A stretch of 64,000 bases of DNA, taken from assembly GCA_001972305.1 (NCBI GenBank), contig BDDD01000175.1:62001-126000 (forward strand). Reading direction: 5' to 3'. Below are positions 5,672 through 63,692 of the stretch, one piece after another. Position 1 is the first letter of the stretch. Every line of letters begins with the position of its first letter. A model generated the notes under the pieces. The model was not told where the DNA came from. It worked only from the letters and a program-made list of their open reading frames with translations, and did no database searches. The translations under genes were made by a program, and so were the position numbers. This stretch comes from Cephalotus follicularis (lineage: Eukaryota; Streptophyta; Magnoliopsida; Oxalidales; Cephalotaceae).

Positions 5672-6060
5672 GACGTCGACGCCTAGCCCATTGGCGTTGA
5701 CGCCTTGATGCTTTTGAACTGTTTTATTCGAAGTTAGCATCAACGGATATCTTTGTCGTTGACGCCTACAATATGGGATTTCCTTCTTCCAGAAAAAACG
5801 TCGACGTAAATCATATCAGCCATCTCAGTGTTGACGTTTTTGGTTTATGCGTCGACGGCTTGACTCGAGGACGTCAACGCCTAAATCCATTGGTTTATAG
5901 AAATGTGTTAAGCGTCGACGCCTACGTCAATGCCTAAACCTACTGGTTTTTAAAAACGAGATGCGCGTCAACCCCTCATGCCATGACGTTGACACCCATC
6001 AACCTTATATTGAAAGTAAATGTTAAGCGTCAATAGGCATATCTATGGCATCGACGCCTA
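5672..6060. repeat. TCGA-centred motif array, GGCGTCGACGCC type
   Basis: Irregularly spaced copies include GACGTCGACGCC (5672), GGCGTTGACGCC (5693), ACGTCGACGT (5798, perfect palindrome), GCGTCGACGG (5849) and AGCGTCGACGCCT (5911), plus GTTGAC and GTCAAC variants. The consensus GGCGTCGACGCC is self-complementary. Spacing varies, so this is not a simple tandem satellite. Confidence 0.85.
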
Positions 6061-7326
6061 ATGCCCTGCTTTTGATGATTGATGTTTTAAAACTAGTTTT
6101 CAACTTCTTTTCACATGACCACTTGACTGGAGCCTCACTTGAGGTGTTTAAGTGTTTGAAAACAGTTTTAATGATTGTATTGACATATTGATTGATTGCT
6201 TGAGTCATGAGTGTCATGAGTCTGAGTTCAGAACGTTGGACGCACATTCCCATTTCTCTATTAGACATCACCACTTATTGACATTGTATTAACAGTGTAC
6301 TAACAGATTGACTGTATTGTATGGATCCTATAGAGTGACCTTATTATTCGTGTCGGCATGTTAGGTTGTTGACTCTGTCCACCTATCTCGTCGATCGATT
6401 CATTTATTGTATTGTATTGACCTGCTGATGAGCAGTACTGTTATTAATTGATGATTGATGCTCTCTTGAGGTCCGTAGCTCCCTGACGGTATAGTAACTC
6501 CCTCGGTTGTAGCTCATCAAGACTGTATTGACCCAGTCGTAGGCTGGAAGATCTATGAGTTCCACACCTGATCAGTCTGAGAAAAGTAGATAGATCTCCC
6601 ACCCTTTTTGAAGGACTACCTTTTGTGGGATTGATCATTGTTATTGATTGACATTTCATTGACCGAGGTTGTATGCTCTGTAGGATATGATTGATTGATT
6701 GGGTGTTTTATACACCACCACCGAGTGTCTGCCATTGATTGATTGTTATAGATCCTATCCATATGCTCTGTTATGGGCTAGTGTCATATGGATAGTCAGA
6801 TCGCCAATTGTATGCATGCATTTGCCATACCATGCATTGATATTGTACACCGCACATTGATATTGCATAGACTGCCACCGATATTGCACATTGTACATGC
6901 ATGAATGCTACATGTGGTTTCTGCTTAGCCTTGTGGCTAACCCCATCATTCGGGGTGGGGCGGTGTTGTACATTTTTTGTGCGGTATAGGTAGGGCAGCA
7001 GGTAGCAGTGGACAGAAGGATTGAAGATTCCATCGACCGAGGGATCATTTTTGGGTCTGACAGGGTTCCTTTTGTAATATTGTATTGAGGAGATGGACAA
7101 ATGTATTGTATCAAAATGACTAGTATAGTACTGTAACATAACTTGTATTGTCTTGTATCGGATGGATGGATTGTTGTAATGGTTTGCAAGAGGATTGTAT
7201 TGTATCTTTCGCATATTGTAAAGTTTTTAGTTTTTCGCATTTTTATATTCCTTGTTCCAACCATTGTATTGTGTATTGGATTGAGAGTAATGCCATGTGT
7301 CCGTCCTCCGGGCGCAGGGTGTTAAA

Positions 7327-7525
7327 GACTCCCTTATTGAGGTAGTCACTCTTGCAAGATCCCCCTGCAGCTTTTCAATGCCCTTCTCAATCTGCGCCTT
7401 ATAACCCTCAAGACCCTTTCTGTCAGCAAGACATGTAACCTTTAGGTCCTTTTTCTTGAGCGCAACAGACACCGCCTCGATACCTTCCTTCACCCAAGGA
7501 ATTTTGAATCCAAATTCTAGGCTAA
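7327..7525 (-). pseudogene. Coiled-coil C-terminal fragment, probably of a PMD-type gene
   Basis: An open frame on the minus strand encodes a charged, helix-prone stretch with repeated Lys/Glu/Leu (words such as KEGIEAVSVALKKKD, EKGIEKLQGDLARV). It resembles the coiled-coil tails found after plant mobile domain proteins. It is cut at 7525 by the gypsy LTR starting at 7526. The minus-strand PMD relic at 16721-18870 lies on the other side of that insertion, so I infer both are pieces of one older PMD-containing gene or transposon. Function unknown. Confidence 0.4.
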
Positions 7526-7670
7526 TGTCACGTCCGGGATTTTCACTAAATAAAATATTGTATTTCCTGATGTAATCTATGCATTAAATTAATGAAAATC
7601 ATGATTTTTTCCACTTTATGGTGTTAAGACTGGAGCAAAAACTTAAAGAAATGTTGTGGGAATAGGGCGG

Positions 7671-7798
7671 GCAGCCGACTGTCTGAGAGAGACAGCCGAC
7701 TAGACCCCCTTAAGTGGAGCCAGCCGACTGCTGGGAGAAACAGCAGGCTGGAAGAATTGGCATAGATAGCCGACTGCCATGGAAAACAGTTGACTGTC
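7671..7798. repeat. CAGCCGACTG motif block upstream of the TATA region
   Basis: Several copies of CAGCCGACTG or near variants (GCAGCCGACTG at 7671, then ACAGCCGACT, CCAGCCGACTG, ATAGCCGACTG, ACAGTTGACTG). The core GCCGAC is the known DRE/CRT core (RCCGAC) bound by plant DREB/CBF factors; binding here is inference. Confidence 0.85.
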
Positions 7799-8340
7799 AT
7801 GCATCAGACAGCATATGTGCGTGCCAGACCTGCCACTGTAGAGAGAGAGAGGGGATTGATGGGTTGTGTCGGCAGGGAGAAAGGGAAACGCATTTCCTCC
7901 ATAAAAACACATGTTCTTCCCCTCCATTCTTCACCATTTATCAGAGAAAAGAGGAGAGAATCAAAGAGTGGAGAGAAAAGGGAAGAAAGTGAGTGTGTGG
8001 TTAAGCCTAAGTGCTCCGTTTTTGAGTTGTGGATTTGGAGACACCAACCAGTGGAAAGAACTGAGCTTGGTGGAGTTGCTGGGCAGATTTAGAAGCTTGG
8101 AAACTTCAGATTTGGAACTTAAAGAGGTGGATTGCAATTCCTAACTTGGAATTCAAAGGTAGGGGTAAGTTATAATTGTGGTTTAAGTTCAATCATAATA
8201 ATGTCCATAGATGAAATGCATGCAATGCACTGTGATATGAGCATGAATGTGTTTTATGGTTGTTGAATACTCTATTTCGAAGGGATTTGGATTGAGAATT
8301 GCATGTATTATCTGCTGATTTTGTGCACTGCCTGCAGGGC

Positions 8341-8816
8341 CAGCCGACTGTCCAAGGAGGACAGTCGACTGTCCGAGGCTAGCAGTCGACTGATTCGGTG
8401 AGAACAACCGACTGCTCAAGGGAAACAGCCGACTGCGCAAAGGAGCCAGTCGACTGTTCATGCGTTTTAATGAAGGTTACCTACTACGGTTTGGGATAGC
8501 CGACTGCCAAAGAGAAGGCAGCCGACTGTGGGTGGTACAGCCAACTATTTGGGATGACAACCGACTGTCCATGTGTCACTTTACCCGGGTTTGCTGAGGT
8601 GGCATGTTGGGGTAAGTGACGGTGACGGGACGTGTACTGTTCATGGACCAGCTGATTGTCCAAAGGAGGATAGCCAACTGGTTGAGTGAGGGACTAGCCA
8701 ACTGCCAAAGAGGGCAGCCGAGTGTCGATTGTTGACCGTGGGCAGCCGACTACCGAGTGAGGACAACCGACTGTTTAAGGAAAACAGCCGACTGTCAAGG
8801 GGAGACAGCCGACTAT
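8341..8816. repeat. CAGTCGACTG/CAGCCGACTG motif array
   Basis: Roughly twenty irregular copies, among them the perfect palindrome ACAGTCGACTGT (8361-8372) and CAGTCGACTG (8383-8392, 8447-8456). Most others are CAGCCGACTG or CAACCGACTG, separated by 10-40 bp of purine-rich spacer (CAAAGGAGG, GAGTGAGGA). The same array occurs in the mate LTR at 15438-15904. Confidence 0.9.
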
Positions 8817-9854
8817 TTGGGACTATTTTGCATTGTGAGCGTATGTGTGCATTTTGTACTATGATAAATTGAATTGTGAATTGATTATTATTGATTGTGA
8901 CATGTTTTATCATTTTTGGAAGTGCATACATGATTATTTATAAATCATTACCTTATACGAAAATGTATGTTTTAAGAAAAATATATATTTTCGGAAGATT
9001 GTGAAAATCGCTTCCAAAAGATCGTGAACTGTTCAAAGAGTTGTATATCGTGAAAATGTGATTGTTTTCAAGTATTTTAAACTTATAAACTACTTGGAAA
9101 ACTGATTGTGAACCGAATTGATTGATGATTGTGATTGTTGTCGTACTAGTTGCGTGGCGGAGGTGTCAGCGATGGCTAGTGGCAGGGTTGACCTAGGGGC
9201 CAGGAGATGGCTGGGTAACTCACTGTACCATGACCTGCTCATGCTTCCAGGAGTTGGGGGTCGATGTCAGGATGTACGACGTTGGGGCCAGTAGTTGGCG
9301 ACGCTCTTCGTACCCATTGTGAATTGATTGGTCCTTTGGACATGATTGTGAACCGTGAGATTGTAGCCTGTTGGCATATATATATATATTGAGATATAGT
9401 ATGTATTGCATCACGATGCATTCATTTCATGGCATTGCTTATCATTGACCCTAAATTACACTTCTGATTTAGCCGAGTGAGGACAAAGGCTAACCCCCTA
9501 CTATTTCGGATTGATGTCGTGATATGGATGTCGCCCGAGCATTGCCGTTTGGGAGCGAGATGGAGTTTTACTTGTTGAATAAATGTTAGACAATGTTTTG
9601 AGACATGTTTTATTTTGGATTACTGTATCGATGTATTAATAATGTTGATCGACTTTTGATCAGGCTCCGTTTGAGGGCAGTTGACTATGGCTTAATGATG
9701 TTAAATATTGGGATCATGCGGTATTGGACGCATGGTTCGGTTTATTAATTCAGCTTATTATTCAATGCTTCTGCAAGGTGTTATTGGAATCAAAGTTTTA
9801 AATTTATCATAATTTCTGTATAAGCTGGATTTATGTTCATTGCCATGACAACAG

Positions 9855-13185: not shown

Positions 13186-14591
13186 AAGGATGCACAGTTG
13201 CGTGATCCTAAACTACTTGAGATTCATGAGAATCTGGGTCCGGAGTCAGATTATCAGATGCATTCTGACGGCATACTGATATTTCAGGGCCGAGTATGTG
13301 TTCCGGATGAGGCTTGGATAAGAAGTGAGTTCTTATATGCGGCACATAAATCACGGTATACCATACATCCTGGTAGCACCAAGATGTATCAAGACCTGAA
13401 AAGGAACTACTGGTGGTCTAGTATGAAGAGGGAGATCGCTGACTATGTCGTGAAGTGTTACACTTGTCAGACTGTCAAGGCTGAGCACCAGAGGCCAGCG
13501 GGTTTGTTACAGCCCTTACTGAATCCAGAGTGGAAATGGGAGCATGTGACGATGGATTTTGTTTCGGGTTTTCCTGTGACTCGAAACCATCATAATACAG
13601 TGTGGGTCATTGTGGATCGGCTCACGAAGTCGGCACATGTTTTGCCTACCCACGTCACAGATTCAGCGAGCAAGTTGGCTCGGTTATACATCAAGGAGAT
13701 CGTGAGGCTGCACAGTGTTCCTGTGAGTATAGTTTGTGACAGAGATTCGATCTTCAATTCCAACTTTTGGAAGAGGTTTCAGACAGCTTTTGGGACGAAG
13801 CTAACCTTTGCACTACCTTTCACCCACAGACAGATGGTCAGTCAGAGCATACCATCCAAACTTTTGAGGATATGCTCCGAGCTTGTATTATCAACTTTGA
13901 TGATACTTGGGAGGACCACATTCCTCTGATAGAGTTTTCTTATAATAGCAACTATCATTCCAGTATTGGTATGGCACCATACGAGGCTCTATATGGAAGA
14001 AAGTGTAGATCACCCATTTGTTGGGATGAGGTTGGTGAGCGACCGTTGCTTGGATCGGATTTGGTGCAAGAGACTTCTGAGAAAGTCAGGTTTATCAAGG
14101 AGAGATTGCTTGCAGCTCGTAGCCGGCAGAGGAGTTGTGTTGACAGCATCAAGAGGAGGCCTCTTACCTTCAACGTTGGTGATCATGTGTTTTTAAAGGT
14201 TTCACCATGGAAGGGCGTACAAGGATTTGTGAAGAAGGGTAAGCTGGCTCTACGCTACATTGGTCCTTTCGAGATCTTAGAGAGAGTTGGGGAGGTGGCT
14301 TATCAGCTTGCTTTACCTCCTGCACTGTCAAATGTGCAAGATGTCTTCCATGTGTCTATGTTGAGGAGATATAGCTGGGACCCGTCACATGTCTTGGATT
14401 ATGATTCAGTTCCTATGCGAGATGACCTTTCTTGCGAGGAGTTACCGATACAGATTCTGGATTGGAAGTCACAGGTATTGAGGAACCGAACCATTCCTAT
14501 GGTAAAGGTTCAGTGGCAGTTTCATCGACCCGATGAGGCGACCTGGGAACGCGAAGAAGACATTAGAGAGCGTTACCCTCATTTATTTTAG
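13186..14591 (+). pseudogene. Gypsy integrase with chromodomain-like tail, pseudogene
   Basis: Inserts the cDNA copy into the genome. Zinc-binding region [17 protein letters not shown] and CYTCQTVKAEHQ near 13365-13490; catalytic core from MDFVSGFP near 13550, with the second acidic region CDRDSIFNS; one frameshift near 13800, after which FHPQTDGQSEHTI and the rest continue to 14591. GPY/F-like KKGKLALRYIGPFEIL is near 14235. The C-terminus ([35 protein letters not shown]) is of the chromodomain type that directs chromoviruses to certain chromatin. Confidence 0.93.
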
Positions 14592-14621
14592 TACTGTTTT
14601 AATTTCGAGGACGAAATTCCT

Positions 14622-14636: not shown

Positions 14637-15010
14637 TGTCACGCCCGGGATTTTCATTAAATGTAATATTGTATTTCCCGACGTAATCTATGCATTAAAT
14701 TAATGAAAATCATGATTTTTGCCACTTTGTGATGTTAAGATTGGAGCAAAAAGTTAAAGAAATGTTGTGGGAACAGGGCGGGCAGCCGACTATCTGAGAG
14801 AGAGAGCCGACTGGACCCCTTTAAGTGGAGCCAGCCGACTGCTGGGAGAAACAGCCGGCTGGAAGTTTCGGCAGAGACAGTCGACTGCCGTGGAAAACAG
14901 TCAACTGTCATGCGTCATATAGCATAAGTGCGTGCAAGACCTGCCACTGCAGAGAGAGAGGGGATTGATGGGTTGTGTCGGCAGGGAGAAAGAGAAACAC
15001 ATTTTCTCCA

Positions 15011-15018
15011 TATAAATA
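15011..15018 (+). promoter_or_regulatory. TATA box of the gypsy LTR
   Basis: TATAAATA lies about 375 bp into the LTR, between two motif blocks. The other LTR has CATAAAAA at the equivalent place. Confidence 0.65.
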
Positions 15019-15437
15019 CATGTTCTTCCCCTCCATTCTTCCCCATTTCAAAGAGAAAGAACAGAGAATCAAAGAGTGGAGAGAAATCGGGAGAAAGTGA
15101 GTGTGTGGTTAAGCCTAAGTGCTCCATTTTTGAGTTGTGGATTTGGAGACACGAACCAGTGGAAAGAACTAAGCTTGGTGGAGTTGCTGGACGGATTTGG
15201 AAGCTTGGAAACTTCGGATTTGGAACTTAAAGAGGTGGATTGCAATTCCTATCTTGGAATTCAAAGGTAGGGGGAAGTTATAATGGTGGTTTAAGTTCAA
15301 TCATAATAATGTCCATAGATGAAATGCATGCAATGTACTGTGATATGAGCATGAATGTGTTTTGTGGTTGTTGAATGCTCTGTTTCGAAGGGATTTGGAT
15401 TGAGAATTGCATGTACTATCTCTTGTATTTGTGAACT

Positions 15438-15904
15438 GCCCATAGGGCCAGTCGACTCTCTAAGGAGGACAACCGACTGTCCGAGGCTAGCAGTCAACTA
15501 ATTCGGTGAGAGTAGCCGACTGCGCAAAGGAGCCAGTTGACTGTTCATGCGTTTTAAAGGAGGTTACCTCTTGCGGTTTGGGATAGCTGACTGCCAAACA
15601 GAAGGCCGCCGACTGTGGGTGGTACAACCGACTGTTTGGGATGATAGCCGACTGTCCACATGTCACTTTACCTGGGTTTGTTGAGGTGTCATGTTGGGGT
15701 AAGTGACTGTGACAGGACGTGTACTGTTCATGGACCAGCCGACTGTCCAAAGGAGGATAGCCAACTGGTTGAGTGAGGGACCAGTCGACTGCCAAAGAGG
15801 GCAGCCGACTGTCGACTGTTGACCGTGGGCAGCCGACTGCCGAGTGAGGACAACCGACTTTTGAAGGAAAACAGCCGGCTATCAGGGGGAGACAGCCGAC
15901 TGTT
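15438..15904. repeat. CAGTCGACTG/CAGCCGACTG motif array, second LTR
   Basis: Counterpart of 8341-8816. CAGTCGACTG is exact at 15782-15791, followed by GCAGCCGACTGTCGACTG. Differences from the first LTR are mostly C/T or G/A exchanges inside the motif (for example CAGTCGACTGATT against CAGTCAACTAATT). Confidence 0.88.
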
Positions 15905-16470
15905 TGGGACCATTTTGCATTCTGAGCATATGTGTGCATTGTGTACTGTGATAAATTGAATTGTGAATTGATTATTATTGATTGTGAAATGTTTTATCAT
16001 TTTTTGAAGTGCATACATGATTATTTATAAATCATTACCTTATACGAAAATGTATGTTTTAAGCAAAATATATATTTTCGGAAGATTGTGAAAATGGCTT
16101 CCAAAATATCGTGAACTGTTCAAAGAGTTGTACATCGTGATAATGTGATTGATTTCAAGTATTTTAAACTTTTAAACTACTTGGAAAACCGATTGTGAAC
16201 CGAATTGATTGTTGATTGTGATTGTTGACGTACTAGTTGCGTGGCAGAGGTGCCAGCGATGGCTAGTGGTAAGGTTGACCCAGGGGCCAGGAGATGGCTG
16301 GGTAACTCACTATACCGTGACCTGCTCATGCTTCCAGGAGTTGGGGGCCGATGTCAGGATGTATGACGTTAGGGCCAGGAGTTGGCGACGCTCTTTGTAC
16401 CCATTGTGAATTGATTGGTCATTTGGACATGATTGTGAACCGTGAGATTGTAGCCTGTTGGCATATGTAT

Positions 16471-20701: not shown

Positions 20702-20877
20702 ACCGTTGATGCCTTGGCTAAAGGTGTCGACGCTTTGTGTTGATTAGTCGACGGTTATTTGTAATTGATCGGCACCTCATGTGTTACACATGGCAGACAT
20801 TTAGTGTATACGTTGACGATTAAGGCATAACGCCTTAACCTTCAACACCTAGGATATAACGTTGACCCTTATCGCCC
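20702..20877. repeat. TCGA-centred motif array, GTCGACGCTT type
   Basis: Decayed copies: CGTTGATGCC, TGTCGACGCTT (20726), AGTCGACGG (20747), CGTTGACGAT, CGTTGACCC. The better-preserved homologue is at 42881-43075. Confidence 0.75.
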
Positions 20878-21443
20878 TGATTTAGCCAAACACACTGTTT
20901 TATATGGTTTCAATCCAAAATGATTTTATTTTCAAACGGACTCCATAGGAAGCCTCCCTAAGGCCTTGTAGCCTACGGAAATCCTCTTATAACACTTTTA
21001 AACCATGGATCAATCTTCAAAATGAATCTTTAAAAAAAATTTCATAAAAATGGGATTTTATACAAATGGTTTTCAAAAATGGTTAGGATAGTTTCATTGG
21101 GACATCTGGATGCGGATATCCTAGTTGGACTTCCTCTCCATTGTTTTTCAACTCCAATAGGGACCAACAAATGGAAATTGATATAAGGAAATGGAAAATG
21201 GTTTATGGAATTGGTTATGGTTATGGAAATGGTTTTCAAATGGTTTTGATGGATGTGGACCCTATGTGATCCTTTATAAAAAGGTCCCTATTATTTAAAT
21301 GGGTATATGGTTATGGGTTATGACTATGGTATGGATTGATTGATTGTATTGTATTGTACGAGGCTAAATGAGATAACCCATTCACCCTCATCTCTGTCAT
21401 GAAGGTCATGAATGTTAGACCACATCATATGGTATGGATATGC

Positions 21444-21739
21444 ATAGTGCTTACCGCACATCGTGGGAGGATCGATATGCATAGTGTTTACCCCACATTG
21501 TGGAAGGACCGATATGGATAGTGCTTACCCCACATCGTGGGAGGATCCATATGGATAGTGCTTACCTCACATCGTGGGAGGACCGATATGGATAGCGCTT
21601 ACCGCACATCGTGGGAGGATCGATATGGATAGTGCTTACCCCACATCATGGGAGGAACAATATGGATAGTGTTTACCCCACATCGTGGGAGGACCAATAT
21701 GGATAGTGCTTACCCACATTGTGGGAGGACCAATATGGA
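21444..21739 (+). repeat. 37-bp tandem repeat, eight copies
   Basis: Unit starts fall at 21444, 21481, 21518, 21555, 21592, 21629, 21666 and 21703, all 37 bp apart. Each unit carries ATAGTGCTTACC and CCCACATCGTGGG, the latter a 5-bp inverted repeat around ATC. No spacers differ between copies, so it is a minisatellite inside the LTR and not a CRISPR-like array. Confidence 0.95.
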
Positions 21740-22405: not shown

Positions 22406-22561
22406 GTATATTAATATTGATAGTGGCTATAGCTAGAGAGACCAACTTTAGAGAACATCCATCTTCTCTTCTCTGTTCTACTTATGAATGCTACTCTAGT
22501 CTGCCAGTAGAATGAGGACCTCTGCCTAGGACGCCAAGAGCGCCTAGTCTGCTACCTTGGC

Positions 22562-45924: not shown

Positions 45925-46641
45925 ATCTCCCCCTTTTTGATGATGACAAAAATTTGCTCAAAAAGGCATAAACATAAGTGATATAAATTAAGTTAAGCAA
46001 TGTTCATACGAGAAAGTTCCGTTTGAATATGCAGCTTTATTTCTAATTCATTTGAGCTATTTGAGTTTTACAAATGTAAGCAATATCAATTAGCTATCTC
46101 CCATAACAATAATAATGAGCTATGCTTTTGAACTTTTATTTCTCCCCATTAGTTATAAAATCTAACTTTTTTGAGCCTATTTCTCCCTTTACTTATAAAA
46201 CTAATGCAACAATGCTTTTGAGTTCTCTTATGCTTTTGAGCCTATTTCTCCCCCTTTTTTGTATAGCATCAAAAAGATAGAAGAAAAATAGCTCCCCCTT
46301 AATACATGAAAGGGTAAAAACAATATCAATAATATTGAACATTATCATATAAGCAATTAATACTCAAGATATAAAAAAAATTTTGTAATAACATTCACAA
46401 TCATAAACATAAACACCATATCATAAACACAATTTCATCATATCATTAACAAAAACACATTGTTCTTACACGAATTAAAAATACATAAACATCTTCATTA
46501 TAACCAAAAAACACAAACAAACAGCAACAAAGATTATGCAGGAGGAGGATTGGAATCGGAGGCGGAGTCATCGCCCGAAGTCTCTTCGCAAGTGTCAATA
46601 ACCTTGGAAGCCGCGAGCTTTCGTTCCAATCTTTTGAGGCG
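45925..46641 (-). promoter_or_regulatory. Polypurine tract and additional PPT-like tracts
   Basis: The minus strand reads AAAAAGGGGGAGAT at 45925-45938, next to the 3' LTR. Similar tracts recur upstream: AAAAAAGGGGGAGAA near 46246-46260 and AAGGGGGAGC near 46290, with shorter ones near 46141 and 46185. Multiplied PPTs are a described Sirevirus feature. The remainder to 46641 is AT-rich without genes. Confidence 0.8.
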
Positions 46642-47845
46642 TCATTTGGTGACTTTTAGATCATAATATATCGTATCATCGACACCCTCAAAGTCGGATC
46701 GAATTGTCAAGTGATCCTTTTCCAAGTTATCAATCCGCGAGTTGACTTGCTTAAATTTTCCTTCGAGGGATGCCTCCAAAGAATCAAACCTAGCAGTCAT
46801 AAACTCGATCATCCTATCATAGTCACTCATAGATGATGATCCTTGAGCTTGAACAGGTTGAGGTTCTTCGTGGGCTTCCCATGGAGGGATCTCCTCTTGA
46901 TCTTCTCTTTCAATCCTTTGCCCTTGGTCGCTCTTTGGGCAATAGGTCCAAATTCCTCCTTGTTTCTTCCATCCCATCCTATTCAAAGTGCTTTTATTAT
47001 AGGTGTCCTCCTTCTTTAACTTTGTGCCAATCTCTCCTTCAAGCCGAATTTCGTGATAATGAAAGATTTTGGTGAGAATGGATCCGAAAGGGAGAACGAA
47101 TTTCTTTTGAGTAAATGCTCTCACCATGGTGTGGAGCATAAGAAGGGGATAGCAAAAATCGATCTTTGAGATGATGCACCACATCAAGAATGCTTGCATC
47201 CGGGAAAGTTTAACGTAGACACCACCGGTGGGAAGAGGTTGATGCACAATGAGGTGATGGAGAAGTCTATGATCCACAGAGACTTTATTGGTGCAAAGAG
47301 CCATAGTAGGGTGAATGTTTGGATCGTTGGGATAAAGGATGGACAAAATGTGATTAGGGTGAAAACCCTCTACTTCTGGCCATTTTTTGGATTCGAAAAT
47401 GTAAATTCCGGTGTGTGGTATGTGAAGGATAGAAGCTAGAATCCTAGCATCTAAGAAAATACACTGCCTATTGACAGTAGAGGAGAGAGCAAACTCCTCA
47501 TGAGGGCTAGACACAATCCTAAGGTTCATATAAAACTCTTTGACCAATTTTACATAAAAAGGGTCCTGAATTTTGACAAGAGGTATGAGGTGTAAGTCCT
47601 CAAGCCAGGAGACAAAAGAAAATTCACTAGAACAGAAGGCAAGATCAATGCTTCTGCCTCCCATTACACGTTTGTCCACAAAAACAACATTTCGGAGTGG
47701 AATTTGCTCTTCAGATTCGGAATCCGATTCAAGAGCTGGGTCAGGGGAAGGTTCCCTAATGTCAAGTTTTTGCCTTTTTATCATATTTCTGGGGTTTAGA
47801 AGAGGTGGAAGCCTTTTTAAAGACGGTTCTTTTTGTCTTAGGCAT
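46642..47845 (-). pseudogene. Sirevirus env-like ORF (putative plant transposon protein)
   Basis: A long frame of 380 codons at 47784-46642. A likely original start is the ATG at 47845 (MPKTKRTVFKKAS), which lies in another frame and joins after one frameshift near 47780. The N-terminus is acidic (SDSESEEQIP); the globular middle reads VDKRVMGGRSIDL, LVKEFYMNLRIV and LPFGSILTKIF; the C-terminus is coiled-coil-like (FDSLEASLEGKFKQVNSRID). No clear signal peptide or membrane segment is visible, so 'env-like' refers to its position downstream of pol. A related fragment lies at 41792-42129. Confidence 0.75.
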
Positions 47846-48050
47846 TATGACAAACAGATGGTATGCACAACAGATAGAGACTGAGAATGAGAAAAACAGA
47901 CTGGATTGGAAGAGAGAAAAATGGTTTTTGATTACGAAAAAGAGTTGGAGAGATGATATGCGAATTGTTAGAACGAGTTTTGAAAGAAAAAGAGAGTGTA
48001 GAAATTTTTTCGAAATCTCCAGAAATAGGGTAAAGTGAGATATGAACATG

Positions 48051-48275
48051 AAGTCGACGTTTTTATGAAAAAAATCGATATCAGGGTAAAAGACGTCGAC
48101 GTGATTCCAAAGACGTCGACTCATTCTTTAAAAGAGACCCAGAAAACGATGAGTTTTAAAAGGCATCGACGCGTTTTGAAAGAAGTCGACGTGTTTCAGA
48201 GAAATAGATGTTTTGTAAAAGAGATCGACGTGTTTTCATAAAACATAAAATTTTTCAGAAAAGAGATCGACGTGT
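48051..48275. repeat. TCGA-centred motif array in the internal spacer
   Basis: AAGTCGACGT (48051), the perfect palindrome ACGTCGACGT (48093-48102), AGACGTCGAC (48111), GGCATCGACGCG, GAAGTCGACGTG, AGATCGACGTG (twice). It lies between pol and the env-like ORF, upstream of the latter. This is the only array not inside an LTR. Confidence 0.85.
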
Positions 48276-48381
48276 TTTTGTAAAAAGAGAACAGTAACAA
48301 GCAAAAACACAATAATAACCAACAAACAATCATCACATCAAATGAGCATATAATTAAATCAATCATTCAAACAAATAAACA

Positions 48382-51300
48382 TCATTCAAGTTCACATAAA
48401 CCTAATTCTCTTCTAAATTTTGAAAAAGAGTTTTCATCTAGAGGTTTAGTGAATATATCCGCAACTTGTTTTTCGGTTGGAATGTATTCTAAAGCAATAT
48501 CTCCACATTCAACATGTTCTCTTAAAAAGTGATATCTAATGTCAATGTGCTTTGTCCTAGAATGATGAACAGGGTTCTTTGCTAGACAAATACTACTAGT
48601 GTTATCACATTTTATGGAGACATCTTTTACACAAACACCATAATCAATCAATTGTTGCTTTTCCCATAAGATTTGTGCACAACAACTACCTACAGCAATA
48701 TATTCAGCTTCGGTGGTAGATAAAGCAACTGAATTTTGTTTTTTACTAAACCAGGAAATAAGCATACTTCCTAGGTATTGGCATGAGCCACTAGTGCTCT
48801 TGCAGTCAACTTTATAACCACCAAAGTCGGCATCCGAGTAAGAATGTAAATCAAAATTAGAGTCTCGGGAATACCATAAACCTAGAGTAGGTGTATATGC
48901 AAGATATTTGAAAATACGTTTTACGGCAAACAAATGAGATTCTTCTGGATTATATTGAAATCGGGCACACAAGCACACACTAAACAAAATATCGGGTCTA
49001 CTAGCAGTTAAATACAATAAAGACCCAATCATACTTCTATAAAGCTTTTGATCAATATTTTTACCTTGTTCGTCTTTGTCAAGCTTTGTAGAGGTGCTCA
49101 TAGGAGTCTTACTTGTTTTAGCTTTCTCCATTCCAAACTTCTTGAGAATTTCCTTTACGTATTTTGTTTGGTTGATGAAGATTCCCTCTTTGTTTTGTGT
49201 GACTTGAAGTCCAAGAAAGAAGTTGAGCTCTCCCATTAAGGTCATTTCAAATTCGGATTTCATAGTATTTGAAAATTCCTTGCACAAAAATTCGTTAGTA
49301 GATCCAAAAATAATGTCATCAACATATATTTGCACAATAAGTAAATCATTACCTTTAGATTTTGTAAAAAGTGTAATATCGACATTTCCTCGTTTTAAAT
49401 CATTTTCAATTAAAAATTTTGTTAATCTCTCATACCAATCACGAGGGGCTTGTTTGAGACCATATAAAGCTTTGTTTAATTTGAAAACATGGTTTGGAAA
49501 GAAAGGATCCTCAAAACCTTGAGGTTGCTCAACGTAAACTTCTTCTTTTATAAAACCATATAAAAATGCACTTTTCACATCCATTTAATATAATTTGAAA
49601 TTTTTAAAGCAAGCAAATGCAAGTAACAATCGAATGGATTCTAATCTAGCAACCGGTGCATATGTTTCATCATAGTCTATTCCTTCTTCTTGTGAGTACC
49701 CTTGTGCAACTAGTCTTGCTTTGTTTCTAATTATTATTCCTTGATTATCCATTTTATTTCTAAATACCCATTTAGTTCCTATTACCGAATGATCCTTAGG
49801 TCTAGGTACAAAAAACCAAACTTTGTTCCGTTCAAATTGGTTTAGCTCTTCTTACATAGCTACTATCCAATTTTCATCCTTTTCGGCTTCTACAAAGTTC
49901 TTGGGTTCTAAGTGAGAAAGGAATGAAACATAATTACAAGTGTTTGCACTAGACCTAGTCCTAATGCCTTGTTGAATATTACCAATTGTAGCTTCATGAG
50001 GGTGATCTTTAACTACCTTGTATGTCTTATCTACAAGTTCTTTTTGGTAACTATCCTTAGGTTCTACATCAATGTCCTCCGAAGGTTCATGAAAATCTAT
50101 ACTATCATGCATATGTGAACTTGAATCATGTAACTCATCAAAGACAACATGCATAGATTCTTCTACCAGTAATCTACGTTTATTAAAACATCTATAAGCT
50201 TTACTAGTAAGGGAGTATCCAAGAAATATACCTTCATCCGCTTTCGAATCAAACTTACCAAGTTGATCTTTTCCATTGTTGTGTATGAAGCATTTGCATC
50301 CGAAGGCACAAAAGTGACTAATGTTAGGCTTTCTCTCCTTCCATAATTCGTATGGAGTCTTTTTGAGAATTGGCCTTATTGATGTTCTATTTAAAATATA
50401 ACATGCAGTGTTCGTGGCTTCGGCCCAAAAATACTTTGGTAAATCATTTTCGCAAAGCATGGTTCTAGTCATTTCTTCTAAGGTTCTATTTCTCCTTTCA
50501 ACAACTCCATTTTGTTGAGGAGTCCTAGGGGTTGGAAATTCATGTTTAAAACCATTTTCAATGCAATAATTATCAAAAATATTATTTTCAAATTCTTTGC
50601 CATGGTCACTTCTAATTTTTAAAATAGAAAGTCCTTTTTCTTTTTGAACAATTTTACAAAAATTTGCAAAGAAAGTAAAAGTTTCACTTTTATGTGCTAA
50701 AAAATAAACCCATGTGTACCTAGTGTAGTCATCAACAATAACATAGGCATATGACTTACCTCCTAAGCTTCTTATGTTTATTGGACCGAAAAGATCCATA
50801 TGAATTAGTTCGAGTGGCCTAGAAGTTGAGACAATGTTGGTTGATTTGAAACTTGCTCTTATTTGTTTTCCTTGTTGGCAAGCATTACATAATTTATCTT
50901 TTTGAAAGCTCAATTTAGGAAGACCTTTTACTAAGCCATGTTTCAAAATTTTTGCAATAGTTCTCATACTAACATGTCCAAGCCTTCTATGCCACATCCA
51001 ACTATCTTCATTTAAAGAGACAAGGCATTTAACATTTTGATTTTGAAGATCATTTAAATTTATAACATAAACATTGCCTTCTCTTTGTCCAATAAACTTA
51101 GTAGCATTATTGTTGTTGTCTACAACTCTACATGATGTATTTTCGAAAATAACTCTACAATTCTTGTCACATAATTGACTTATGCTCAAGAGACTGTGTT
51201 TGAGTCCTTTAACATGCAGTACATTAGTAATAGTGATGTCTTTATTACCTATGGAGCCGGTTCCAACGATTTGTCCTTTTGTGTTATCTCCAAAGGTTAC

Positions 51301-51690
51301 GTTTCCTCCGTCTTTTGGTTTCCAAGTTATAAATAGGCGTTTATTACCCGTCATGTGCTTGGAGTATCCACTATCGAGGTACCAACGATTTCTCTTTGGT
51401 GAAATCTACAAAACAAGAGAATTTATGTTGAAGACTTTGGTACCCAAGTTGATTTGGGTCCGGGGGGGTTAGTAATAAATGTTCCTTTTGGAACCCATAT
51501 AGTTCTTAATTTAAACACCTTATTTTTCAATAATAAATTTCTCTTGTGCATGTTATTTTTCTTGTGATAACAATTTTGTGTAGTGTGACCATATTTATTG
51601 CAATAGGTGCAAGCTATGCTAGATGAGGTCTTTTTATTATCTTTCTTTTCAAGATATTTTTGAAAATGCTTAACATTGTTCATCTCATCA
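48382..51690 (-). pseudogene. Sirevirus-like pol: gag remnant, protease-proximal region, integrase, RT, RNase H
   Basis: 51683-51423 keeps a gag knuckle (CTYCNKYGHTTQNCYH). 51354-49852 (500 codons) carries MTGNKRLFITW and LLSISQLCDK, the integrase HHCC region (HRRLGHVSMRT, CNACQQGKQIRASF), and the DDE parts (HMDLFGPINIR, RSDHGKEFEN, GVVERRNRT). A frameshift near 49850 and a TAA just before the ATG at 49584 separate the RT start. 49584-48382 (400 codons) holds MDVKSAFLYG, the YVDD active site and RNase H (DADFGGYKVDCKSTSG, LSTTEAEYIA, VADIFTKPL). Only a few disabling changes are visible. Confidence 0.95.
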
Positions 51691-51715
51691 TAACCTAGGC
51701 GAGCCTTGTTAAAAA

Positions 51716-52936
51716 CAGAAAGAAAAACTTCTCCGATTCAGAGTGGTTCGGCTAACTCTTGCCTACGTCCACTTTTCCCAAGGGAGCTCCTTGAGTTTCC
51801 ACTATCTCGAATTGATTATGGTAGCAATTCGTTACACCTTACAATTTCGTGATTGACCTCAATCACAAGACCTTGACCTCAAGACCTTAGAGGATTCTCC
51901 TCTTTTACAAGTGGTTGTGAAATGTGTTTACAAGATAACCTCTCAAAAAGGTTTGATATGGCTAATTACAGAACACAATATGAATCTCACAGAAGAACTC
52001 AAGAGATGGAGCTTTGAAGCTTTCGGGGACACTATAGAGTACTTGAGCTTTTTGACACTAGAATGCTTGAATTTGATTTCTCTCTTGATGTTGTGTAATT
52101 CTTGTTGAATTGATGTGAATTCAATTGTTCTTCTCTGAGGTTTGAATCTTCCTTTTATAGGCAGAAGAGTCTTATAGCTGTTGCATAAATCCTTGAAGCT
52201 TTTGATTTAATAATGTGTTGATGCAACTTTGCTTTTGTCTCTGCTGGCAGAAAGACGTCAATGTCTTCATAAAGGCGTTGATGTCTTTGACTGTTACTAG
52301 CCGTTGTAAGTGCGCTAACTAGCCATTCCGTGTTTCCCGGGTCAATCATTTTGAAAAGACGTCGATGTCTTTTAAAGGCATCGATGTCTTTGCTGGGAAT
52401 GTTTCCAGGTATTTGAAGTTATGAGCATCACATCGACTTCTTCTATAAGGGTCGATGTCTTTTCTGGATTTTGCAGATTGGTCTAGAAAGACGTCGATGT
52501 CTATGGTAAGGGATCGATGTCTTTTCATGGACGTCGATGTCTTCACAAACAAGGATCGATGTCATCACTCGATTTTGACCTGTAACTTTGGCACCTCAAG
52601 ACGTCGATGTCTTCTTGATAGGGATCGATGTCTTTTGTATGGACGTCGATGTCTTTGCTTGTAAGGATCGATGTCTTCACTAAAATTTGACCTGTAACTT
52701 TGGGCACTATAGACGTCAATGGCTTTATTCAAAGGGATCGATGTCTTTCTCCAAATTTTGCCTGTATCTTCGGTGGCTTTAAGACGTCGATGTCTTCTTC
52801 AATGAGGATCGATGTCTTTCTCCTTGTAGTTGATTTTTGCCTTTTGTGAAGCTTTCTAATATCTTGCACATCAAGTAAACTTGTTAAATGCAAATATGTT
52901 ATCGTCAAAACAAGGATTGAGACTAAATCGTCAACA
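51716..52936 (-). repeat. 5' LTR of the Sirevirus-like element, truncated
   Basis: Matches 44706-45924 with few differences. The ~90 bp that should adjoin the PBS are missing; the LTR is joined directly to gag sequence. The TATA box is on the minus strand near 52151-52162. Confidence 0.9.
52253..52820. repeat. TCGA-centred motif array, second Sirevirus LTR
   Basis: Counterpart of 45240-45810. Several differences fall on the central or flanking CpG: GACGTCAATG against GACGTCGATG, and GGCGTTGATG against GGCGTCGATG. Confidence 0.9.
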
Positions 52937-55935: not shown

Positions 55936-56911
55936 ATAGCGCCCTGTCACATTCAAAAGGTTGGATCTCGTGCCGAGAGGGATGTGAGAGTGAGGTCCTT
56001 ACTCCCTATGACAAATGTTCCAAGTCATAGGTACACTTTCTTTGGGCCATTGATGAACCGTGAAGACATGTCACGTTAAGCTTGCTTTCGGGTTAGCAGT
56101 GGAGGTTGGTTATTTCGTAGCCAATTGAGTTTATCCCTAAAGCTGAATGTGAGGTGTATACTAGAGAGCGTGACACAGAACTGACCCACCAATAGGAAAT
56201 CTATTTGGATAGTCAATACCGAATGTCAATAGGATTCCTATGATCTTGGTAGTGTATAGTCTATGGTGACTAGTAGGTCTATAGCCTGCGTTGTCTCCTT
56301 TGACCTGAACGGCTGGCATGCATTGTTTGGTAACTGCTTGACTTTGATTTTTGCCTTCCCCAGCACTAGCCAGGTGCTAGGAAAAGGGTTGTCGTTGGGT
56401 CTTATGGGAGCTGCATTGAGATGTATGGGCGAGTGCGCAATAGGGGATCATCACACCCGGGCTGAGGGTGACCGGCTCTATTTATCTATTTACGTTGCAG
56501 ACTTAAAAGTCCTAATCAAGCATAGGTGGACCGGGAATGAGAGGTTCCCATGGGAAGTCTACCGATAGTTTCAGTGTGATCAGAGATTCATAGTTATCAC
56601 AGCAACACTAGGGGTGACATTCATCCAAACCATAGGATGTGACCGGAGCCAAGTATGACGAGGGAAACAAGACACATATGCTGATGACTAGATAAAGTGA
56701 CTGGCTATTTGGACCATGATTGATAGACGTGGTAATACACCGATCCGCGGGGTGACTGGCACTCGCACTAGGGCTGCTCTGATAGTCGATGTACAGTTAG
56801 AGTGGTCGTACTAGATATCGGGATCTTCTGGGAATTTATCATCATACCAGAGAATGATTGGCTTTCGGGTCCTGCCTGACTTTGAATAGGTTGATTTGTG
56901 GCAGGACACAT
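55936..56911. repeat. Dispersed ~0.9 kb repeat, copy 2
   Basis: Mate of 1-920. No conserved frame. It is followed by a copia LTR portion ending in a PBS, so it is either the U3 of that LTR or the tail of an upstream copia copy. Confidence 0.6.
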
Positions 56912-57058: not shown

Positions 57059-57395
57059 GGCGTCGATGCTATGGAGAGCATGCTTTGACGCCATGCATAG
57101 TTGAGTTGCTGGGTGTTAACACGAATGGCTTGCGTTGACGCTGACAAAACAAATCGCTTTACACGTCGACGCCATTAGGGGTACACGCGACGCCATAACT
57201 GGACTGAGCCGCTGTGTGTTAACGCTATGGAGAGCATGGCATTGATGATTTAAAAACAAGTAGGTTTACGCGTTGACGCTATGAGTTTTAGGCGTTGACC
57301 CGAAGACAAATAAGACTAGGCAACTGTTTCATCTTATCCATGGCGTTGCCGCCTAGATAATACGAGACGCATGGCGTTGACGCCTTGACAGGCTG
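57059..57395. repeat. TCGA-centred motif array, GGCGTTGACGCC type
   Basis: GGCGTCGATGC (57059), TTTGACGCCATG, GCGTTGACGCTG, ACGTCGACGCCAT (57166), GCGTTGACGCTATG, GGCGTTGACCC, GGCGTTGACGCC (57373-57384). One more copy, ACGCGTCGACGTC, is at 57521 in the leader. Confidence 0.85.
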
Positions 57396-59604: not shown

Positions 59605-62400
59605 ATGTCAGTTGGCATATCACTATCACGCATACTTGAAACAAATAAGCTTACGGGTCCTCACTTCTTGGATTGATAGCGCAACTTGCGCTTAGCACTC
59701 ACGAGAATGAAGCTTACTTATGTCATGACTGAGAGCCCCCCTAAACAAGGAGCCAACCCATCAGATGAGCTTAAGGCCAAGAGGGCCAAATGGGTAGATA
59801 AGGATGAGCAAGTTCGTTGCTTAGAGATTTCGGGTATGGTCCCGGAATTGCAAAGCAAGCACGACAAGCTTGATACCCTAGGAGCTATACTTTTCTAACT
59901 ACAGGAGTTGTATGGATCTCGGTCGAGGACCGAGTTGTTTAACTTGTCCTGTTAGCCTTCTGCACGAAGATGGCCGAGGGATCTTCAATCCACGCACATG
60001 GATTGAAGTTGATTGATCTTGTTGAGCAGATGGCTCAGTTGGATCTCACCATGGACAATGATTTCTACATTGACCTGCTGCTTTCATCTATCCCTAGGTC
60101 ATATTCCCAGTTCATCACAAATTTGTGGATACTAATCAGCCTGAACTTGTGAAAAAGCTTCGTACGACCGAAGTAGACATGGACCATGGGAGGTCCAAGT
60201 CTGACGTGATGTTTCTTCCTTCTACTTCTTCCTGGATCAAGAGGATCCATGTCCAAGGGCAAGGGGCCCATGAAACCTAAAGGGAAGAAGAAGAACAAAG
60301 GGAGAAAAGCAGCTGCGCCGATGGGGCCAGCTGTTGGGGGATCAGTGCTTGATATGATCCGATAGCTACATGATGATGACTGTTGCTTTTATTGTGGAAA
60401 GCATGGAAATTGGAGATCATAGTGCAGTGAGTTCAAAAAGTCCAAGTCATGAGCTGCCTCAGGGCCTTGTACTTTCATGATTGAGCTTTTTCTAGCTACT
60501 AATGTTAGTTCAACTTGGGTTTTGGATTCGGGTTGTGGAACTAAATATGTAACTCTTTGCAGGGGGTAAGAGGCACTAGACAGCTGAGAGAGGCTAAAGC
60601 TTTGGACTTGCGTCTAGGTGATGGATTGAGGATTCACACCACGGCAATAGGCATTTTTGAATAGTCTTTATGTAATGTCCATGTAATTAAACTTAATCCT
60701 TGTTATTTTGTCAAGAACCTTGTAAGAAATGCTGTATATGTTTCATATTTGTATAAGATAGGCATGGAGCTCACTTTTTCTACATATGGTTGTAGACTTT
60801 TGCAAAACAATGTTCTTTTATGTGATGGACACATTGACAATGGGATCTATGTTTTACATACAAATGCACAAATGGCTTTAACAATTCAAACTGGAACAAG
60901 CTCTAAAAGACAATGAGAGATAGGCGATAAAAACCCTTCATATACATGGCATTGTAGATTAGGTCATCCCAGTCAGGGTAGACTAGCACGCTTGGTTAAG
61001 GATGGGCTTTTAGACATCCAGGACGTGGAGTCCTTTCCAGAGTGTGAGCCATGTCTTATTGGAAAAATGACCAAATCTCCCTTCTCCGGGGGAGGGGAAA
61101 GGGCTGTGGACATACTGGCTATTGTCCACACTGACGTCTGCGAACCTATGTCGGTCAATGCTAGTGGAGGTTTTCCCTACTTCATTACCTTCACCGATGA
61201 CTGGTCTCGGTATGGGTATGTGTTTCTGATGAAACACAAGTCTGAGGCCTTTGAGAGGTTCAAAGAATTCAGACTAGAAGTAGAAAAGCAAATGGGTAAA
61301 GCCATTAAGATCCTCTGGTCGGATTGAGGTGGAGAATACCTATCTGCTACATTCATGGGTTATCTGAAGGATAACGAAATTCTCGCTCTGTGGACACCTC
61401 CAGGAACACCACAACATAATGGGGTGTTCGAGAGGAGTTCGGTCCATGATGTCTTTCGCAGATCTTCCTATACATTCTGGGGTTTTGCACTGCATGTGGC
61501 AGTGTACATCATAAACCCGATTCCTTCTAAATCCGTACCCTCCACTCCTTTCGAGGTTTATAAAGGGAGGAAACCCAGCATAAACCATTTGAGGGTTTGG
61601 GGCTGTCTAGCTTATGTTAGAAGGGCGAATCCTTCTAAGCTGGAGGCATGAGCAGATCGTTGCTGGTTTGTGGGGTATCCTAAGGAGAGAAAAGGATACT
61701 ACTTTTACCATCCTAGCGATCAAAAGTTTTTTGTATCGTTTACTGCCAAATTCCTAGAGAAGGAATACGTGCTTGCAGGGAGCAGTGGGAGCAAGGTGGA
61801 ACTGAGAAAGTTATCACATGGTGAAAGCCCATAGGATGAGGAGGAATTAGAGGTTCAACCCTCTACAGACATAGTTGGGGAAGGTTCCCAACCTGAGAGT
61901 GGATCTCCGTTAGGCACTCATTTAACGAGGAGATCAGGCAGAGTTCCAGTACCTCCTGAGAGATATGGCTTTCTCATTGACGATACTGAGGAACTCAGCG
62001 ACATCGATGATGATGAGCCCGTTAGCTAAGAGGAGGCAGTGAAGAGCACTGAATCCGTGGCATGGCTAGAGGCCATTAAATCTGAGATGGACTCCATGGA
62101 CACCAACCAAGTATGGAACTTGGTCGATGCACCTGAGGGTATTAACCTTATTTGTTGCAAATGGATCTTCAAGAGGAATGTTGGAGTTGATGGTAAGATA
62201 GAGACTTACAAAGAGCGATTGGTCGCGAAAGGGTATAGGCAAAGACACAGAGTCGACTATACCAAAACTTTCTCACCAGTCTCTATGCTTAAGTTAATCC
62301 GGATATTGCTTGCTGTTGCCGCTCATTACAATTATGAGATATGGCAGTCTCTATGCGATTGGTCGATGCACCATAGGGAATGATGTAGGTATGTTGTTGT
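59605..62400 (+). pseudogene. Ty1/copia gag-pol pseudogene (gag, protease, integrase, RT start)
   Basis: The ATG at 59605 gives MSVGISLSRILETNKLTGPH. Gag continues in broken frames (DNDFYIDLLLSSIPRSYSQF near 60056), with a damaged CCHC knuckle (CFYCGKHGNW, His replaced by Asn, then a stop) near 60385 and a protease DSGCGT near 60525. Integrase: GHPSQGRLARLVKDG, CEPCLIGKMTKSPF, HTDVCEPMSVNASGG, WSD then a stop (61326), TPQHNGVFERS. RT starts at about 62030 (QVWNLVDAPEG, CKWIFKRNVG, ARLVAKGY-like LVAKGYRQ, TFSPVSMLK) and breaks off after YEIWQ; the catalytic YVDD block is deleted. 62381-62412 (NDVGMLLSVK) is the next RT piece. Confidence 0.9.
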
Positions 62401-62412
62401 CTGTTAAAGTAT

Positions 62413-63692
62413 TGTTGAAGGTCCACAAAGGTAACCAAGAGGGGGGTGAATTGGTTATGCGGAAAATAACCACAATATTTAATGATTAAAAACAATAATG
62501 ATAAAAACAAACAAGTTACTCTAAACAGTAAATTAAATAGCAAATAAAGTAAAGAGAAGAGATAGAGAAATGGAAACGAGTTTATAGTGGTTGGGAAAAC
62601 CGTGCCTACATCCACTCTCCCAAGCCGTGCTTGAGGTTCCACTAGAATGTAATCCCCATATCACAAACAGCGATTCTGGATTTTTACAAGCTGAATCCTA
62701 ACTCGAATTTTTACGAGCTAAATCCTAACTCGGATTTTGATAAGCTAAATCCTAACTTTGGGTAAGGTACTAATGATCTTTGGTATACAATGGATTTCTA
62801 AGTGTTTTTAATGTTTAAAAACCTCTCAAAAGGTTGAATAACAAAAACAGTAATTGCTCAAAGGATCTTAGAAAAGAACTTTGTAAACTATAGCTCAAAA
62901 CTATTTTTTCTTGCTCTTGTATAGCTTGGATATGGCTTGTGTGAGTAGTTGATTATTTCTTCATGATTTGGGCCTTTATTTATAACTTTCAAATGAATAT
63001 TACCGTTACTACAGACCAGGAATCGTCAAGGAGCCGTTTGAATCAAGTATGGAAAGTCTTCACCATTTCAGAACCTTCAAATTTTGTAGATTTCATGTCT
63101 GGCTGTCATTAGCGTTGACATGTACGCATGGCATTGACGTGTATCTCCTAATGCGTTGACTCCTGTGGCTTTCTGCGTTGATACTCCAAGCTCTTGGTCA
63201 TCTTCAGTTCTATTTACATTGACGTGCATCCATGGTGTTGACGTATAGAGACAAGATGCTGACGTCATAATGTCTTTGATGTCAAAACTCACTGTCCGAA
63301 ATGTGCACCATTTGCGTTGACGTCTTATATGACGTTGACGTCTATAGACAAGGTGTTGACTCCACTTATTATCTGCGTTAACGTCCAAGCCACAATCACC
63401 TTTTGACATTGACGTCTTTGCTCATGACGTTGACGTAAATCATAAGTTTCCCAGAATGTTGACGAGGATAAAGATCACATCGATGAGGATCATCTTTCCA
63501 AGCCCAGAACATATACTTATTCCCAGAATGTTGATGCCTAAAACTTAGTCGTTGATGCCAAAAAGATTGATATGCAAGTTTTAGCTTTCTTACATTGCAA
63601 GTTAACTTTGTTAGAGATTCCTTCACATCAAATACACAGATTAGGTGTTTTGTCATCATCAAAACAAAGATTGTAACACATAAATATCAACA
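62413..63692 (-). mobile_element. Sirevirus-type solo LTR inserted in the copia RT
   Basis: 1280 bp. It starts TGTTGAAGG and ends ATATCAACA on the plus strand. The minus-strand start TGTTGATATTTATG and 'TTTTGATGATGACAAAA' are typical of these LTRs. The plus-strand beginning has AAGAGGGGGGTGAATTGG as in 44637-44650. A minus-strand TATA (TATAAATAAAG) is near 62976-62986, with the motif array upstream of it. Flanks agtat and atgat do not give a convincing duplication. Confidence 0.75.
63111..63560. repeat. TCGA/TTGA-centred motif array, GCGTTGACGT type
   Basis: AGCGTTGACATG (63111), GCATTGACGTG, GCGTTGACTCC, ACATTGACGTGC, GTGTTGACGT, GCGTTGACGTC, GACGTTGACGTC, CATCGATGAGG, GTTGATGCC. Nearly every copy has lost the central CpG (TTGA instead of TCGA). 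Confidence 0.82.

Follow-up and report, generated by a model that had tools for sequence, protein, structure and literature searches.

It is already known that Sirevirus retrotransposons carry palindromic boxes, the RM boxes, which are present in high copy number in the long terminal repeat (LTR), where they precede the TATA box, and which recur immediately before ENV (Bousios 2010, PMC2829016). TCGA forms the centre of two of the RMs described there (Vitis, CGGTCGACCG; and Tnd-1, ACAATCGATTGT), and the RMs of all 13 elements except Tnd-1 have a CGG-CCG core (PMC2829016). The account of the boxes given there states that they are specific to Sireviruses, as opposed to classic copia elements, and finds no common factor for them (Bousios 2010, PMC2829016). 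Here, arrays of short motifs with cores such as GTCGAC were analyzed in a 64,000-nucleotide stretch of the genome of Cephalotus follicularis (contig BDDD01000175.1, positions 62,001–126,000; the whole stretch is referred to as the window). They lie in LTRs of copia elements, some of them Sirevirus-type, and of Ty3 chromovirus-type elements, and also in front of a gene encoding a protein with the Pfam domain PF20167.

Two further systems are close to what is described below. In VANDAL transposons of Arabidopsis, dense, element-specific short motifs of one orientation (YAGTATTAY) lie in non-coding DNA and turn over fast between related elements, along with divergent element-encoded VANC proteins, for which both binding to the motif and a loss of DNA methylation have been demonstrated (PMC5735166). 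The portion of a 2026 review that deals with VANC describes it for Vandal elements only (PMC13317346). In an Athila element of sunflower, PF20167 (Transposase_32) is found in an additional 3′ open reading frame with a predicted nuclear signal and of unknown function (PMC11728184).

Observed in the present material are the arrays themselves, their phasing at two helical turns, the absence of mixing between motif classes A and B, a match between motif class and element family in front of PF20167 genes, and the exchange of one class for another in the same LTR slot. In this organization, we lean towards seeing operator arrays for DNA-binding proteins. A literature search covering titles and the beginnings of abstracts, with few subscription papers, revealed, among the records listed, neither arrays of this kind in Ty3 LTRs nor a match of motif classes to PF20167; two-turn phasing, chromovirus arrays, class swaps, and the class match to PF20167 paralogues are new as far as that literature goes.

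Results

The arrays comprise at least three motif groups

Arrays were present at every place at which an initial annotation of the window had reported them. GTCGAC, around which that annotation had centred the motifs, was enriched in the window: it occurred 37 times, whereas 100 dinucleotide shuffles had 5.82 occurrences on average and 12 at most (6.3-fold excess), and all but two of these occurrences (35/37) fell inside arrays. Two fixed words provided a test without fitting. When at most one mismatch was allowed, all 54 matches of the class A word CAGYCGACTG and all 30 matches of the class B word GCGTYGACGC lay within arrays, neither word matched in the remaining 58,319 bp of the window, and none of 16 arrays contained both. 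The looser class C and class D words had 7 and 4 matches, respectively, outside arrays. The cores found were GTCGAC, GTCAAC, and ATCGAY; perfect TCGA-centred palindromes of at least 10 bp numbered 19 in the window, 14 of them in arrays. To describe the arrays, at least three motif groups are needed, namely, A, B/B′, and C/P.

Neighbouring sites are spaced by two helical turns

Sites were called by a small expectation–maximization (EM) search, which found 146 sites in the arrays, compared with a mean of 67.5 and a maximum of 95 in shuffles. Because this search picks sites in shuffled DNA too, site counts alone are weak, and the contrast in spacing is the stronger result. The motifs had been described as irregularly spaced, which is refuted: of the 133 distances between neighbouring sites in 13 arrays (with a single LTR counted from each pair), 78 were 19–22 bp, 38 of them exactly 21 bp, compared with a mean of 15.3 (sd 3.7; maximum 32 in 5,000 trials) for spacings of 19–22 bp upon random placement. 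The corresponding fraction, 0.59, was 0.076 on average and at most 0.175 when dinucleotide shuffles were put through the same EM search, and non-array segments of the window gave 128 of 1,934 spacings in this range. Pairs of sites more than 26 bp apart still held a 10.5-bp phase (resultant 0.34 for 315 pairs; null maximum 0.18).

The same spacing recurred beyond the window. When the assembly (1.577 Gb in 9,746 contigs) was searched, class A pairs numbered 38,225, compared with 137 for a reversed control pattern, and class B pairs 4,236, compared with 7. In the class B search, the centres of a pair could be anywhere from 10 to 40 bp apart, and 41 of 50 plus-strand pairs among the first listed of the 4,236 were 19–22 bp apart. 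Neighbour distances of up to 60 bp were also determined in loci fetched for two families of PF20167-carrying elements, here called A and L. In the eight A-family loci, 85 of 100 (exact cores) were 19–22 bp, the remaining core distances being 30, 40–42, and 50–52 bp; in 30 L-family loci it was 89 of 198, with further peaks at 31, 41–42, and 50–52 bp. Since the loci within these families are related, their spacing numbers are not independent.

Orientation differed between arrays. All 17 sites called at 63111–63560 were co-oriented, mostly with a TCAA core and with the innermost pair complementary in 6%; 9 of its 16 neighbour spacings were 19–22 bp. One orientation was shared by 17 of 18 sites at 45240–45810 and by 12 of 14 at 57059–57395. 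The earlier description of the motifs as self-complementary thus holds for the core of most classes, but not for oriented arrays such as 63111–63560 and 45240–45810. On the other strand, the TCAA cores at 63111–63560 read TTGAC, which we take to resemble the core of the plant W-box; C-to-T decay of TCGAC would equally yield a core of the TTGAC type. Both the phasing and the separation of classes are suggestive of DNA-binding proteins that cooperate.

Homologous chromovirus LTRs carry different classes in the same slot

The LTRs of chromovirus E1 and of F34 (Table 1) gave colinear matches, one at the LTR start, one midway, and one spanning the final 1.1 kb (76%). The stretch that separates the latter two contains class A in E1 and class B in F34. 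The LTR of E0 and the one beginning near 38.9 kb matched at the start and beyond the array slot, which is occupied by class B in E0 and by class A in the other; for this pair, local matches were used, a global alignment being unhelpful in the middle. Homologous LTRs differ in the class of array they carry at one and the same place.

An array may also be lost. The 3′ LTR of chromovirus E2 (22561–24181) lacks the array that its 5′ LTR has at 28079–28285, most likely because of a 1150-bp deletion. The converse, that the 1150-bp segment containing the array is an inserted element, was considered and rejected, neither a target-site duplication nor LTR ends being seen. Similarity to a genomic class A locus (L013) extends over part of the segment's interior and to either side of the distal junction; because this locus is colinear across the junction, a deletion in the other E2 LTR is preferred.

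PF20167 genes and the arrays around them

Four genome searches with PF20167 queries gave between 11,556 and 15,198 loose first-look candidates each, of which 95–150 each were scored; the one that used the Pfam model gave 13,073, of which 150 were scored. A protein search found 383 relatives, and all 120 among the matches listed were named Cephalotus follicularis. Pattern scans of viral contigs gave one and two records, and scans with two integrase frames found no relative. Ten class A loci, the first to be retrieved (L004–L013, in the first 60 kb of contig C1), represented seven different array sites: three belong to a single A-family Sirevirus (L004, L005–L007, and L008), three have similarity to chromovirus LTRs or pol (L009/L010, L011, and L013), and one is unclassified (L012).

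The PF20167 proteins are divergent, those of the A family being 23–24% and those of the E5/P0085 group 31–33% identical to an L-family protein. Pfam recognized PF20167 and, weakly, HSBP1 only. Their N-terminus is basic; those of L044, L014, and L048 read MPRTKRATKKK, MPKTKHASQGG, and MASRKRKTTAKQ, respectively, which we take to be loosely similar to the histone H3 tail. In the chromoviruses of the window, one of which (E1) is seen from LTR to LTR, tblastn gave no PF20167 match.

In two widely sampled PF20167 families, each family has a motif class of its own in the array that precedes the gene, and this class recurs downstream, that is, after the PF20167 gene match. In the A family, class A was found upstream at 8/8 loci (4–20 sites) and downstream at 8/8 (5–14 sites); none of these loci had a B or B′ match, and upstream, C and P-like matches occurred as well. 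For the L family, 29 of the 30 loci were scored, L015 being dropped because its contig starts there. Class B′ (at least three sites) was found upstream in 28 of 29 and B or B′ (at least two) downstream in 23 of 29, and class A was absent upstream in 28 of 29; the loci without B downstream were L018, L019, L021, L039, L040, and L042, the last having class A there. In the P0085 family, P words dominated on both sides at both loci (2/2), and the E5-like L046 had C and P words on both sides. Wherever inspection by eye gave a clear LTR junction (L014, L037, L044–L046, and L008), the downstream array lay in the LTR. As a separate observation, words resembling class C (AAGTCGACCCCTTT, GACATCGACGTCTTTC) are interspersed in the class A array at L005:1501–1690, which lies upstream of the A-family PF20167 gene; this gives the impression of a mixture of two specificities or of a replacement of one by the other.

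In Sirevirus E5 of the window, position weight matrices of the array upstream of PF20167 (48051–48275) and of the array in the LTR of the same element correlated with 0.86; such correlations start from class seeds and count as support only. When arrays upstream of PF20167 were paired with LTR arrays by shared 7-mers or 8-mers (four families, first copies), the pairing of each with its own LTR was the best of 24. Among seven L-family genes tried, the ATG could be located in six, all of which had a TATA-like site between array and ATG.

Elements of the window

The elements and arrays of the window are collected in Table 1. The claim of the initial annotation that arrays occur in both gypsy chromovirus-type and copia LTRs was confirmed. 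Its placement of all arrays in LTRs is correct for most; 48051–48275 and 42881–43075, however, precede a PF20167 frame and a PF20167 remnant, respectively, and 20702–20877 is homologous to the latter array. In three copia LTRs (E5, 63111–63560, and 57059–57395), the array ends 34–127 bp upstream of a TATA-like site. The array of the 38.9-kb LTR sits downstream of such a site; with the pattern used, none was found in E0 and F34, and E2 has three candidates.

E5 is flanked on both sides by the target-site duplication AACTT and has the polypurine tract (PPT) GGGGGAG with the junction AT|TG. The inner end of its 5′ LTR is missing, and apparently gag is missing too. The start of the 63.7-kb LTR resembles, by eye, that of L-family Sireviruses. 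Other repeats were seen as well. At 21437–21739, next to the region of the class B array, a 37-bp unit is repeated 8.2 times in tandem (89% matches). Two further tandem arrays, with units of ∼30 bp and related to each other, flank the F34 LTR just beyond its two ends (34027–34156 and 37302–37433), and a 0.95-kb sequence is shared, at 72% identity, by 13–947 and 55955–56911.

Table 1. Motif arrays, LTRs, and coding regions of the window (PBS, primer-binding site; RT, reverse transcriptase).
Feature	Position	Strand	Context
E0 domains RNase H, H2C2, SH3_Tf2-1	2233–4872		Also similar to E1 RT and chromodomain frames
E0 LTR	From about 4941		PPT GGAGGGGAGA
Array, class B (GCGTCRACGCC)	5672–6060	+	3′ LTR of Ty3 chromovirus-type E0
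E1 5′ LTR	7526–9852	+	PBS at 9855; truncated 3′ LTR 14637–16470
Array, class A (CAGYCGACTG)	7671–7798	+	5′ LTR of chromovirus E1
3′ LTR copy of first E1 array	14783–14908		Ends ∼100 bp upstream of TATA box at 15011
Second class A array of E1 LTR	8341–8816	+	Downstream of TATA region; 3′ LTR copy 15451–15904
E1 frame	13740–14588		SH3_Tf2-1 match and weak Chromo match
Array, class B	20702–20877	-	Homologous to 42881–43075
Array, class A	28079–28285	-	Within 5′ LTR (26645–29411) of chromovirus E2
LTR F34, E1 chromovirus family	34213–37299	-	Colinear blastn matches at LTR start, middle, end; start TGTAACGCCCGGG
Array, class A, in F34	35226–35345	-	
Array, class B, in F34	35404–35705	-	Slot where E1 has class A
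Array, class A variant (CAGTCGACTAA)	39863–39978	+	LTR (from about 38881) homologous to E0 LTR
PF20167 gene remnant	41783–42129	-	tblastn E 2.8e-13; two pieces, 31% and 46% identity
Array, class B	42881–43075	-	Upstream (in sense) of PF20167 remnant
Sirevirus-type copia E5	44610–52936	-	3′ LTR 44610–45924; 5′ LTR 51718–52936
Array, class C (AGACATCGACGTCT)	45240–45810	-	E5 3′ LTR; TATA box 45147; 5′ LTR copy 52253–52820
Extra frame, PF20167 (Transposase_32), 400 aa	46645–47844	-	Between RT and 3′ LTR of E5; Pfam E 1.7e-16
Array, class C/D (ACACGTCGATKTCT)	48051–48275	-	Directly upstream of E5 PF20167 frame
Array, class B (sense GGCGTTGACGC)	57059–57395	+	Copia LTR; 34 bp upstream of TATA box (57429)
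Copia LTR with array 57059–57395	Ends about 58232		PBS 58233; copia integrase match 60686–61711
Array, oriented class B′ (GACGTCAACG)	63111–63560	-	Sirevirus-like LTR starting about 63692; TATA-like site 62984

Discussion

Proposed regulation by element-encoded proteins

The explanation that we consider somewhat probable is that the arrays are operator arrays for DNA-binding proteins, the factor of Sireviruses being encoded by PF20167 and chromoviruses borrowing it. The proteins would cooperate on one face of the helix, with sites two turns and, in longer steps, three, four, or five turns apart. In Sireviruses, the factor would most likely be the element's own PF20167 product, predicted to bind arrays in two places, in the LTR promoter and in front of the PF20167 gene itself, and, by analogy to VANC of VANDAL transposons, to activate or de-silence both targets. 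Every Sirevirus family would then have its own PF20167 paralogue and its own motif class. Chromoviruses would carry a class that some Sirevirus family has and exploit the factor of that family, and upon a change of factor, the array in the same LTR slot would be replaced by one of another class. That family, class, and PF20167 paralogue go together suggests the gene of the element itself as the source of the factor, although part of this match is explained by co-inheritance. A shared trans-acting factor, or else a chromatin or RNA process, had already been suggested in the initial annotation; a trans-acting factor is indeed the best account, but a single shared one is not supported: at least three motif groups are needed, and words A and B never share an array of the window.

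Several observations weigh against this explanation. Class matching may reflect that an element passes on its gene and its arrays together. Because no PF20167 match was found in the chromoviruses of the window, borrowing must be assumed. When a locus is assigned to the class with most sites, the A-family L054 scores as P (7) over A (5) and the L-family L027 as C (9) over B′ (7), and at L018, an L-family gene is preceded by class A. In a further family, X, five of eight loci had no class with at least two sites in the upstream flank, though L059 of this family has a short GTCGAC array before TATA and ATG. The E5 and P0085 families cannot be told apart: when second copies were used, the LTR array of P0085, which is longer, had more 8-mers in common with the E5 upstream array than the LTR array of E5 had. 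In four A-family genes, L044, and L046, the 420 bp preceding the ATG contained no TATA-like site. As for the protein, the single structure model obtained for PF20167 has a C-terminal helix, the rest being unusable (mean predicted local distance difference test score, 38.7) and without a demonstrated DNA-binding fold, and three sequence matches to solved structures had E values of 0.11–0.93 only.

It is possible, but on the unlikely side, that host transcription factors, for example, stress-related ones, bind the arrays, and that the families convergently gathered their sites as enhancers in LTRs and before the extra gene. The lack of a PF20167 match in the window chromoviruses fits this, as does the position of the copia arrays just upstream of TATA-like sites, and comparison of RMs with PLACE mainly gave sites for stress-related factors (Bousios 2010, PMC2829016). 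A host factor does not by itself predict, however, that class tracks element family and PF20167 paralogue, and the slot swaps in homologous LTRs would require a switch of host factor.

Improbable, in our view, is an origin of the arrays from one sequence that passed between families through recombination or as a nested insertion. Nested elements are frequent in the window, a match of 51 bp links the LTR array of E5 to the A-family upstream array at 78% identity (E 5e-6), and L018 and L042, with class A beside an L-family gene, may be insertions. In a panel of LTRs, however, the sole match between copia and chromovirus that involved an array was 60 bp long (E=0.005), and no recent exchange of whole arrays between the superfamilies was seen in the window, in keeping with the initial annotation. 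Because spacers turn over, exchange could nevertheless have happened long ago.

That the palindromes act in RNA or single-stranded DNA, pairing as hairpins or kissing loops in packaging, dimerization, or as silencing RNA, is very improbable. Although 12 of 13 arrays were more stable than shuffles (z −1.66 to −8.72), the array at 63111–63560, in which all called sites are co-oriented, is phased yet has no excess structure (z −0.63), so that structure is not the common feature, and RNA hairpins are rejected as the common function.

Least probable is spread of a functionless minisatellite with a unit of ∼21 bp by slippage, since, although several arrays score as tandem repeats and E5 contains longer units of 112 and 70 bp, spacer positions around the dyad are only ∼30% identical within arrays (background 26%) as opposed to 66–88% at the eight core positions (a figure inflated by site choice), so that it is not the whole unit that is repeated, a divergence with kept spacing that largely refutes this view, which also leaves unexplained the class match upstream and downstream of PF20167 and the spacing common to unrelated families.

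If operator arrays are the right explanation and PF20167 binds them, the role of the extra Sirevirus gene and of the boxes before it would have a direct answer. Element-encoded, sequence-specific regulation would extend from VANDAL DNA transposons to plant LTR retrotransposons, and a testable case would be at hand of one retrotransposon superfamily exploiting the regulator of another. More tentatively, and with confidence short of an even chance, Sireviruses might encode diversified PF20167 regulators with phased operators on which the other superfamily is parasitic, swapping specificities in its LTR slots in what would be an arms race or a network of piracy. Even without binding by PF20167, two-turn phasing and class separation constrain any model of these LTRs.

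Comparison with known systems

The initial annotation had mentioned repeated motifs of Sirevirus LTRs as a loose parallel; the parallel is stronger than that, the RM boxes being a direct precedent (Bousios 2010, PMC2829016). Like them, the copia arrays lie shortly upstream of a TATA-like site, and arrays recur upstream of PF20167, the putative counterpart of an ENV-like gene, in E5 and in the L- and A-family loci. Multiple PPT copies and the AT/TG junction, as in hosts of RM boxes, were seen in E5, L014, L044, L045, and the A-family L008. Unlike the RM boxes, the arrays described here have no CGG-CCG core, show two-turn phasing, fall into several classes, some of them oriented and matched to PF20167 paralogues, and also occur in LTRs of Ty3 chromoviruses, whereas Ty3 LTRs are not mentioned in the account of the boxes given there.

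With the additional frame of sunflower Athila (PMC11728184), the PF20167 frame of E5 shares the Pfam domain and the position as an extra 3′ open reading frame of an LTR retrotransposon. The sunflower element, however, is a Ty3 Athila and not a Sirevirus, and the available portion of that paper makes no mention of arrays.

VANDALs differ in being DNA transposons with a non-palindromic motif, YAGTATTAY, and in that binding and demethylation have been demonstrated for them (PMC5735166). Common to both are dense arrays of short motifs in non-coding DNA of an element that, in the present case, encodes a candidate for the factor, PF20167. The parallel with VANC, drawn already in the initial annotation, gains weight from the finding that, in the widely sampled families, the array upstream of PF20167 has the class of its own family, with PF20167 standing, by analogy, as no more than a candidate for the factor that would play the part of VANC.

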